Part shown: one piece after another, positions 6,240-44,465 of the stretch
Layout of the letters: each line of letters starts with the position of its first letter
Position numbering within the stretch: the stretch's first letter is position 1
From: Prevotellaceae bacterium
Lineage (GTDB): Bacteria > Bacteroidota > Bacteroidia > Bacteroidales > UBA932
Assembly: GCA_031257315.1 (NCBI GenBank)
Contig: JAIROW010000187.1
Coordinates: 1-44,465, forward strand
DNA: 44,465 nt
Direction of reading: 5' to 3'
Notes under the pieces: model-generated
Told to the model about the DNA's origin: nothing
The model's database searches: none
What the model saw: the letters and a program-made list of their open reading frames with translations, nothing else
Position numbers and translations under genes: made by a program

Positions 6240-6495
6240 ATGCGAATCAAGGGTTGAAAACGTTATTTTAGTCCGAATGGGCTTAATTTTCATAACCGCA
6301 AACAAGCGAAGCGCGGTATGCGGTAGCACAATCGTTCTCATCATTGCCTGTAAGGCAAAACTTTAATGCTTTTGCGATAGAGTTCTGCCTTTCAGACAGT
6401 CTGTTATTGTCGTTTTTAGCCGCAGGCAACGCTATCGCTCGCCTGCGGTTATGAAAATTTTGTCTCTGCGGGACATTTTAACTTCTGATTCGCAT
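6240..6495 (-). repeat. Modular palindromic intergenic element, copy A (256 bp)
   Basis: Bounded by ATGCGAATCA (6240-6249) and TGATTCGCAT (6486-6495). Near-identical to the reverse complement of 9736-9991. Contains CCGCAGGC..GCCTGCGG and other hairpins. Confidence 0.9.
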
Positions 6496-9402: not shown

Positions 9403-9446
9403 AATTGACAATTGACAATTGACAATTGATAATTGACAATTGTCAA
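9403..9446. repeat. Tandem TTGACAA/TTGATAA AT-rich repeat
   Basis: aattgacaattgacaattgacaattgataattgacaattgtcaat read directly. Shorter versions lie at 6222-6239, 9721-9733 and 43671-43686. Confidence 0.85.
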
Positions 9447-9449
9447 TCG

Positions 9450-9480
9450 TAGAGACGCGATAAATCGCGTCTCTATTTTT
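9450..9480. repeat. TAGAGACGCGATaaATCGCGTCTCTA palindrome followed by T5
   Basis: Perfect 12-bp stem with a 2-nt loop at 9450-9475. A copy with loop tt is at 43690-43715. Confidence 0.92.
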
Positions 9481-9483
9481 CAC

Positions 9484-9721
9484 AAAAAAGCAGGCGAGCT
9501 TTTCAAAAAAGCAGGCGAGCTTTCATAAAAAAGCAGGCGAGCTTTTCAAAAAAGCAGGCGAGCTTTCATGGAAAAGCAGGCGAGCTTTCATGGAAAAGCA
9601 GGCGAGCTTTCATGGAAAAGCAGGCGAGCTTTTCAAAAAGGCAGGCGAGCTTTCACAAAAAAGCAGGCGAGCTTTCACAAAAAAGCAGGCGAGCTTTCAC
9701 AAAAAAGCAGGCGAGCTTTTT
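9484..9721. repeat. 21-22 bp minisatellite, 11 units of AAAAGCAGGCGAGCTTTT(c/ca)
   Basis: The gcaggcgagct core occurs 11 times at 21-22 bp spacing. Each unit can form AAAAGC/GCTTTT around an AGGCGA loop. Confidence 0.95.
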
Positions 9722-9735
9722 GACAATTGATAATA

Positions 9736-9991
9736 ATGCGAATCAGGAGTAAAAATGTCCTTACAGGACAAAATTTTCATAACCGCAGGCGAGCGATAGC
9801 GTTGCCTGCGGTTAAAAACGACAACAACTGACTGCCTGAAAGGCAGAACTCTATCGCAATAGAATTGAAATTTTGCCTTTCAGGCAATGATGAGAACGAT
9901 TGTGCTACCGCATACCGCGCTTCGCTTGTATGCGGTTATGAAAATTTAGCCCATTCGGGCTAAAATAACGTTTTCAACCCTTGATTCGCAT
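9736..9991 (+). repeat. Modular palindromic intergenic element, copy B (256 bp)
   Basis: ATGCGAATCA (9736-9745) ... TGATTCGCAT (9982-9991). Inverted relative to copy A with the same length. Confidence 0.9.
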
Positions 9992-26396: not shown

Positions 26397-26627
26397 ATGC
26401 GAATATCAGGTGTTGCAAAAGTTTTTTTAACCAGAATGGACTTAATTTTCATAACCGCATACAAGCAAAGCGCGGTTTGCGGTAGCACAATAGTTCTCAT
26501 CTTTGCCTGTAAGGCGAAACTTTAACAAGGGGTTGCAACCCCTTGTTAAGCCGCAGGCAACGCTATCGCTCGCCTGCGGTTATGCAAATCGCTGTACTGA
26601 AAGGACTTTTTTACTCCTGATTCGCAT
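26397..26627 (-). repeat. Modular palindromic intergenic element, copy C (231 bp, module-swapped)
   Basis: ATGCGAATATCAGG ... CTCCTGATTCGCAT. Shares the CATAACCGCATAC..GCGGT, TTTGCCTGTAAGGC and CCGCAGGCAACGCTATCGCTCGCCTGCGG modules. Confidence 0.88.
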
Positions 26628-35760: not shown

Positions 35761-36168
35761 TTATCTGTCGTCATTACGGTTTTCTTCATCTTCACTGTCG
35801 TCATCGTCCCAGTCTTCACTGTCATCGTCGTCCCAGTCTTCACTGTCGTCATCGTCCCAGTCTTCACTGTCATCATCGTCCCAGTCCTCACTGTCATCAT
35901 CGTCCCAGTCCTCATCATCGTCGTCCCAGTCCTCATCATCATCGTCCCAGTTCTCATCGTCGTCGTCCCAGTCCTCATCTTTGTCGGTGTTGTCGAGATA
36001 ATAACTGCCGGTTGTCAATTTTCCGTTTCGATAGATACTTAATTCGTCAAATTCATCATAGTCAGAACGTTTTGACCTTTTTTCCTTCAATGGCGATTTT
36101 CCTCTAACTTGCTGTTCGCCAGTACGACCTTTGTCGTAAAATTTATGAAAATTCATGTTAGTTTTCAT
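35761..36168 (-). CDS. Small bipartite protein with extremely acidic C-terminal (EDWDDDD(S))8 repeats
   Basis: 135 aa. Basic/polar N-terminus (HKFYDKGRTGEQQVRGKSPLKEKRSKRSDYDEFDE) followed by eight EDW/ENW-DDDD units. The ORF stays open across the repeats. Confidence 0.75.
   Translation of the reverse strand: MKTNMNFHKFYDKGRTGEQQVRGKSPLKEKRSKRSDYDEFDELSIYRNGKLTTGSYYLDNTDKDEDWDDDDENWDDDDEDWDDDDEDWDDDDSEDWDDDDSEDWDDDDSEDWDDDDSEDWDDDDSEDEENRNDDR
35783..35983. repeat. 21/24-bp coding minisatellite
   Basis: Eight TCGTCCCAG-centred units: 24-bp spacing for the SEDWDDDD units and 21-bp spacing for the EDWDDDD units. Confidence 0.9.
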
Positions 36169-43689: not shown

Positions 43690-43720
43690 TAGAGACGCGA
43701 TTTATCGCGTCTCTATTTTT
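43690..43720. repeat. TAGAGACGCGATttATCGCGTCTCTA palindrome followed by T5
   Basis: 12-bp perfect stem 3' of mgsA. Second copy of 9450-9480. Could act as a terminator. Confidence 0.92.
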
Positions 43721-43724
43721 CACG

Positions 43725-43786
43725 AAAAGCAGGCGAGCTTTTCAAAAAAGCAGGCGAGCTTTCATAAAAAAGCAGGCGAGCTTTTT
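43725..43786. repeat. 3-unit version of the GCAGGCGAGC minisatellite
   Basis: Three gcaggcgagct units, same flanks as the 11-unit array at 9484-9721. Confidence 0.95.
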
Positions 43787-43800
43787 GACAATTGATAATA

Positions 43801-44465
43801 ATGCGAATCAGGAGTTAAAATGTCCCGCAGGGACAAAATTTTCATAACCGCAGGCGAGCGATAGCGTTGCCTGCGGCTAAAAACGACAATAACAGACTGC
43901 CTGAAAGGCAGAACTCTATCACAAAAGAATTAAAGTTTTGCCTTACAGGCAAAGATGAGAACGATTGTGCTACCGCATACCGCGCTTCGCTTGTTTGCGG
44001 TTATGAAAATTCGGCTTTTTAAGCCGTACCCCTAACCCCTTGCTAAGCCGCAGGCAACGTTGCGCTCGCCTGCGGTTATGCGAGAGTTCGGCTTTTAAAG
44101 CCTGTTCAAACCCCCTGACTTTTTGCCCGCAGGGACAAAATTTTCATAACCGCAGGCGAGCGATAGCGTTGCCTGCGGCTAAAAACGACAACAACCGACT
44201 GACTGAAAGGCAGAACTCTATTGCAAAAGCATTAATGTTTTGCCTTACAGGCAAAGATGAGAACGATTGTGCTACCGCATACCGCGCTTCGCTTGTTTGC
44301 GGTTATGAAAATTAAGCCCATTCGGGCTAAAAGTCAGGTTGTTCATAACAGCGGCTTGAAAAGCCGAACCTTCATAACCGCAGGCGAGCGTAGCGTTGCC
44401 TGCGGACAACGAAACGTACAAGCACCCCCTGCCCGAATGGGCAGAACAATAACGACTGAGGCGTT
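43801..44465 (+). repeat. Modular palindromic intergenic element, copy D (expanded; runs off the window)
   Basis: Starts ATGCGAATCAGGAG. Contains two ~190-bp direct copies (43821-44011 and 44124-44313) plus further hairpin modules. The terminal TGATTCGCAT is not reached before 44465. Confidence 0.88.

Follow-up and report, generated by a model that had tools for sequence, protein, structure and literature searches.

A 256-bp intergenic repeat in a Bacteroidales genome, a probable hybrid of IS982-related transposon ends and an emptied Y1 transposase element

The 256-bp intergenic element described here is, with high probability, a non-autonomous hybrid transposon, in which a shell of IS982-related terminal inverted repeats (TIRs) encloses the core of a gutted Y1 transposase element of subclass 1.2. 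The initial annotation had proposed a MITE/REP-like element, and each half of that term proved apt: the ends belong to an IS982-related insertion sequence (IS), and what they enclose is a REP-like palindrome of the kind associated with Y1. Its remark that no transposase accompanies the copies also holds, as none is present in the window (the whole stretch analysed, 44,465 nucleotides) and neither cognate transposase was found in the assembly. Since the outer ends are TIRs of an IS982-related IS, the transposase of that IS most likely copied the element and inserted it in trans.

Reading of the sequence confirmed copies A, B and C at 6240-6495, 9736-9991 and 26397-26627, together with the hairpins described for them. 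The position of copy C is correct; its left end is imperfect (ATGCGAATATCA) and the central hairpins H3 and H3′ are swapped for CAAGGGGTTGCAACCCCTTG. The fourth proposed copy, D (from 43801), is not a simple copy and comprises two or more complete core units plus an incomplete further one. As the window is a whole contig (C224), D breaks off where the contig stops. The features are as follows.

9736..9991, + strand: copy B, full 256-bp element, the probable hybrid (sequence reading and own-genome BLAST)
9736..9756, + strand: left TIR of the IS982-related type (ATGCGAATCAGGAGTAAAAAT); the same TIR bounds IS982-related transposase genes
9757..9769, + strand: hairpin H1 (GTCC-TTACA-GGAC)
9774..9784, + strand: conserved anchor TTTTCATAACC, between H1 and H2
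9783..9811, + strand: hairpin H2 (CCGCAGGC..GCCTGCGG)
9832..9846, + strand: hairpin H3 (CTGCCTGAAAGGCAG); in Y1-bearing relatives the Y1 gene begins just downstream
9847..9872, + strand: spacer at the place of the autonomous element's Y1 gene, from half-by-half matches to Y1-flanking arms
9873..9887, + strand: hairpin H3′ (TTGCCTTTCAGGCAA)
9908..9935, + strand: hairpin H2′ (CCGCATAC..GTATGCGG); copies L061 and L062 have this loop inverted
9934..9944, − strand: anchor in inverted orientation (GGTTATGAAAA)
9946..9963, + strand: hairpin H1′ (AGCCC-ATTC-GGGCT)
9968..9991, − strand: right TIR (reverse complement ATGCGAATCAAGGGTTGAAAACGT), resembling the IS ends in L187 and L210
6240..6495, − strand: copy A, full 256-bp element
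26397..26627, − strand: copy C, 231-bp variant with a different central hairpin
43801..44465, + strand: D, composite with a single TIR in front, incomplete at the contig end
10015..10040, − strand: solo inverted left end (TIR relic) adjoining copy B, 96% over query positions 1-26

Other repeats are found in the same window. Copies B and D are immediately adjacent to a 22-bp minisatellite (GCAGGCGAGCTTTT..AAAA; 9478-9720 and 43717-43785), in which the 5′ arm of H2 is contained. Arrays of heptamers (AATTGAC and TTAGATA-like; 9403-9447 in the window) adjoin many elements and are possible insertion hotspots; they resemble the short tandem repeats of cyanobacteria. A 24-bp tandem repeat of approximately seven units (35786-35977) overlaps a short ORF, and genes for SusD, TonB, GH92 and GH95 are also present, in line with a Bacteroidales host.

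The genome that carries the window (Bacteroidales, 3.0 Mb) is assembled in 281 contigs, many of which end in these repeats. When copy B was compared with its own genome by BLAST, approximately 50 copies were found, most of them at 85-97% identity, bearing out the expectation of further copies. The 10-bp end ATGCGAATCA occurs 156 times in this genome, 78 times on each strand, against 0 + 0 for the reversed pattern. We aligned the 34 copies of 225-265 bp that had both ends; identity to the consensus was 91-97% for most of them and 60-76% for a few variants. Copies are seen in both orientations, none of 39 lies within a long ORF, and intergenic copies are often located between convergent genes (9 of the 21 that could be classified). 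The same TIRs also bound elements of 54, 129, 177, 228, 247, 435 and 490 bp, whose insides differ, and it is therefore the ends, not the inside, that form the constant part. The smallest of these (L096:377-430, G000:C48) is a perfect 54-bp palindrome consisting of two TIR ends and one hairpin, and is possibly the minimal mobile form. An additional contribution from recombination or repeat expansion is suggested by the composite and tandem copies (D, L038 and L052). With no transposase inside, lengths of 54-490 bp, approximately 50 full copies and a TIR in common with an autonomous IS, the family resembles a MITE.

The TIRs of the 256-bp element are those of an IS982-related IS of approximately 1.05 kb that is distributed throughout the Bacteroidota. 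One such IS (L187, on contig C45 of genome G019) is 1068 bp long, has the TIR ATGCGAATCAAGGGTT and encodes a transposase matching the IS982 model; on inspection, this gene copy has a C-terminal frameshift. The identical TIR is present in homologues (47-51% identity) from three other families of the order (G038, G052 and G096). A scan of named genomes, using an alignment of four transposase proteins as the query, yielded 80 loci, mostly in Bacteroidota, and the TIR was present at both ends in 53 of the 65 transposase loci with sequence on both sides. Against the NCBIfam model NF033520 (IS982), the IS transposases gave E values from 2e-31 to 8e-19 and 68-109 bits, below the cut-off of 130, and by their sequences they appear to be a divergent branch of the IS982 type. 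No useful relative of the IS982-like transposase was found among solved structures. TIRs start with AC in 57 of 69 members of the IS982 family (PMC7335449); the partner TIR starts with ATGCG, not AC, and a canonical IS982 in G058 starts with ACCC. The score below the cut-off and the non-AC TIR are the reasons why we call the partner 'IS982-related' and not 'IS982'. Its transposase was not found in the fragmented own assembly (281 contigs), where the best match had an E value of 3e-4. MITEs can be orphaned, and a cognate transposase in the same genome is supportive, not strictly required.

The target sites of the two kinds of element were compared. An exact 5-bp duplication flanked 30 of 51 unique IS flank pairs, against a shuffled mean of 2.0, and these duplications obey NANTN. 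The same target motif was seen among the miniature copies, with A at −4 (40/42), T at −2 (37/42), A at +2 (40/42) and T at +4 (37/42); the corresponding counts for the IS were 40/52, 44/52, 41/52 and 42/52. Just 6 of 42 miniature copies kept an exact 5-bp duplication (2.1 shuffled, P ~0.011), which is fewer than expected for copies approximately 95% identical to the consensus and counts against the hybrid transposon. A scan of offsets and of duplication lengths other than 5 bp gave weak, scattered signals.

Hairpin chains that match the inside of copy B and lack the ATGCGAATCA ends are found in congeners as well as elsewhere in the family, in several other genera. The plan of the arms is constant: H1, the anchor, H2, a linker and H3, followed by an inverted repeat of the same. 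Across genera the stems vary yet pair, both in H1 (AGCCC/GGGCT, GTCCT/AGGAC, GGCTT/AAGCC and AACCC/GGGTT) and in H2 (CCGCAGGT/ACCTGCGG and CCCCATGC/GCATGGGG); as these arms were chosen for having hairpins, the paired fraction is not an independent test. At two loci (G032:C29 and G013:C69), a 149-aa Y1 gene begins just past H3 and stops just before H3′. Of copy B, the left half (query 24-111) aligns with the arm that precedes Y1 in G013:C69, and the right half (query 139-231) with the arm that follows Y1 in G032:C29. Two further Y1 loci at 77-79% identity (G120:C175 and G132:C201) have the same kind of arms. All four genomes belong to the same family, and their core-type Y1 genes form one clade (support 95/99). 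Intermediates were also found: between intact arms, L403 retains the C-terminal part of Y1, and L306 retains approximately 30 nt of its 3′ end. The Y1 gene within the same arms and the intermediates together indicate that the core is a deletion derivative of a Y1 element. The core-type Y1 transposase was not found in the own assembly (281 contigs). A Y1 fragment at the end of contig C128 (G000) was considered and rejected, being a different Y1.

The initial annotation had suggested a trans-acting Y1 of the RAYT type. This came close: the enzyme associated with the core is a Y1, not of the class 2 RAYTs but of subclass 1.2, which is IS200-related. The core Y1 proteins scored 71.8 and 65.9 bits against the IS200 model NF033573, above its cut-off of 55, and matched ISHp608 TnpA in the PDB (E 9e-8). 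With 149 aa and the motifs NHIH and YIKNQKEHH they carry the signature of TnpA_Y1 subclass 1.2, which has been described as approximately 148 aa with HUH and Y---Q--HH motifs (Quentin et al. 2018, PMC6006769); at the first HUH residue the core Y1 has N in place of the published D. They are also like that subclass in occurring in Bacteroidota. Subclass 1.2 was reported to be generally without terminal secondary structures, with REP listed as 'no' (Quentin et al. 2018, PMC6006769). Unlike in that description, the members studied here are flanked by inverted hairpin arms, copies of which are dispersed. For most of the Y---Q--HH genes examined, the upstream and downstream 300 bp share inverted repeats well above shuffles, and folds of the flanks show hairpin arms. 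A second Y1 clade (G035/G003/G064) has its own arms, dispersed in the genome and in many cases present as inverted pairs without Y1. Hairpins anchored by ATAACC were detected solely in a supported 15-member clade that holds the four core-type Y1 genes, which suggests that enzyme and arm type are paired. It is likely that subclass 1.2 Y1 enzymes constitute a REP-like system of their own, each clade being enclosed by and spreading its own arms, and that emptied copies can be captured between the ends of DDE transposons, giving hybrids that two unrelated transposases could recognise.

A further Y1 clade (L408, L409 and L422, in G094, G085 and G129) has flanking hairpins of a different type, CCGTCCC..GGGACGG followed by AATGT..GGTAGAAA. 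Two repeats of the own genome, L112 and L206, also contain a CGCTCGGTAGAAA motif.

For three copies flanked by coding sequence, the orthologous loci of congeners were read; the core was absent from 16 such loci and the TIR from 14. In the search for empty-site orthologues that the initial annotation had proposed, orthologous flanks without the core were present, and no sequence spanning the junction was found. A search of the genus for joined flanks returned the flanking genes at 70-82% identity and nothing across the junction, the divergence being too high for an exact cross-species empty site. No exact empty site was proven within the genome, because the flanks are often other repeats (heptamer arrays).

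As single-stranded DNA, copy B folds with −64.8 kcal/mol, compared with −29.5 ± 3.4 for dinucleotide shuffles (z = −10.3). Such foldability, the conservation of stems across genera while the stem sequence changes, and the intergenic position, frequently between convergent genes, would also suit a structured RNA, such as a riboregulator or sRNA, or terminators or sites for protein binding arrayed under selection by the host. We regard this as very unlikely. A search of Rfam gave no match to a curated family at the gathering score, and beyond the hairpins nothing speaks for the structured RNA that had been proposed. Covariation of the stems was present among own-genome copies, with 19 double-change cells against 9.5 shuffled; it was weak and came mostly from two pairs, one in H1 (C-G/T-A, 19:9) and one in H2′ (T-A/A-T, 11:8), the latter unpaired in 10 of 29 copies. 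Moreover, the element is a palindrome found in both orientations, orthologous loci lack it, and the transposase gene nested in its relatives explains its plan. Conservation of stems across genera is as expected for single-stranded DNA hairpins bound by HUH enzymes. In L061 and L062 the H2′ loop is reversed while the stems stay the same, and the H1 loop is GAA in some copies and TTC in others. These inversions point to hairpin-mediated inversion or exchange and not to RNA selection, and suggest that loop inversion at short palindromes is frequent.

The dispersal in several genera of Y1 arms identical in plan also fits a purely Y1/REP-type (REPIN-like) element, mobilised by Y1 as single-stranded DNA, of which the ATGCGAATCA ends would be the outer part. 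This is improbable, since the Y1-bearing relatives and the other genera have different outer ends, whereas the ATGCGAATCA ends bound IS982-like genes across the Bacteroidota, as well as the TIR-only palindrome and unrelated insides. The NANTN target and the partial 5-bp duplications likewise fit a DDE enzyme. Another gene found within such ends encodes a DUF1016/YhcG PD-(D/E)XK nuclease, located in a 1611-bp TIR-bounded unit (G000:C1:2458-4068) that has the ATGCGAATCA ends and the same hairpin modules (L093:459-2069). That it is the autonomous partner is almost certainly wrong: other DUF1016 genes in the own genome, and approximately 30 in relatives, have no enclosing TIRs or long inverted repeats, and DUF1016/YhcG was rejected as a transposase after approximately 30 loci had been tested. 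A literature search found nothing relevant linking DUF1016 to transposition. As the gene in the 1611-bp unit is broken, it is either captured cargo or sits between two neighbouring elements.

For the hybrid transposon, a pathway can be proposed. It would have started from a Y1 element with a 149-aa nuclease gene between two inverted arms, each H1 - AATTTTCATAACC - H2 - linker - H3, on which Y1 would act as single-stranded hairpins. This element would have lost its gene and then been enclosed by IS982-type ends, either through template switching or because it inserted between two such ends. The package would have been amplified in trans by the DDE transposase, at NANTN sites and with a 5-bp duplication, and the hairpins would now be passengers. 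With neither enzyme in the assembly, the family may have been left without a means of moving; alternatively, the two genes may be hidden in gaps between the 281 contigs.

The proposed element shares features with several known systems. MITEs of the IS982 family are known, for example in Cardinium (PMC9769881; family review PMC7335449), and as in that family the partner IS is approximately 1 kb long, with a DDE transposase matching NF033520, short TIRs and a non-autonomous derivative that shares the TIR and is probably moved in trans; it differs in its ATGCGAATCA TIR and in a transposase that scores below the curated threshold. In Cardinium, the MITE is described as descending from an IS982 element that is its own parent (PMC9769881), whereas the inside of the hybrid comes from an unrelated Y1 element. 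The core resembles IS200/IS605 elements in its hairpin arms and in a TnpA that matches the IS200 model. Like the REPs, REPINs and REPtrons of RAYTs (PMC3116915, PMC3733652), it consists of intergenic palindromes in inverted pairs, which flank Y1 or are dispersed without it. Unlike RAYT REPs, the arms inspected have no GT[AG]G at the hairpin foot, and each has three hairpins and the TTTTCATAACC anchor; the core Y1 motif is YIKNQ, and not the Y..NP of class 2 RAYTs. BrickBuilt/MITE464 of Porphyromonas gingivalis (PMC4596501) is likewise intergenic and repeat-filled, a Bacteroidales MITE that takes its TIRs from an IS to which its inside has no relation, but it has IS5-type TIRs around a 23-bp minisatellite instead of a Y1 hairpin core.

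The main novelty is a set of putative cognate hairpin arms for an orphan class of HUH nucleases. They provide candidate DNA substrates for TnpA_Y1 subclass 1.2, which had none, so that defined oligonucleotides could be used for direct assays of these enzymes. For the IS982-related partner an experimental system exists, as cultured Bacteroides, Phocaeicola and Parabacteroides carry IS copies with intact TIR and 5-bp duplication (L273-L289). The family would illustrate a route by which a REP-like palindrome becomes the cargo of a DDE transposon unrelated to it and is amplified in this new package, bringing together two processes that are usually studied apart. It also accounts for much of the intergenic repeat content of these Bacteroidales genomes, and for a large share of their contig breaks.
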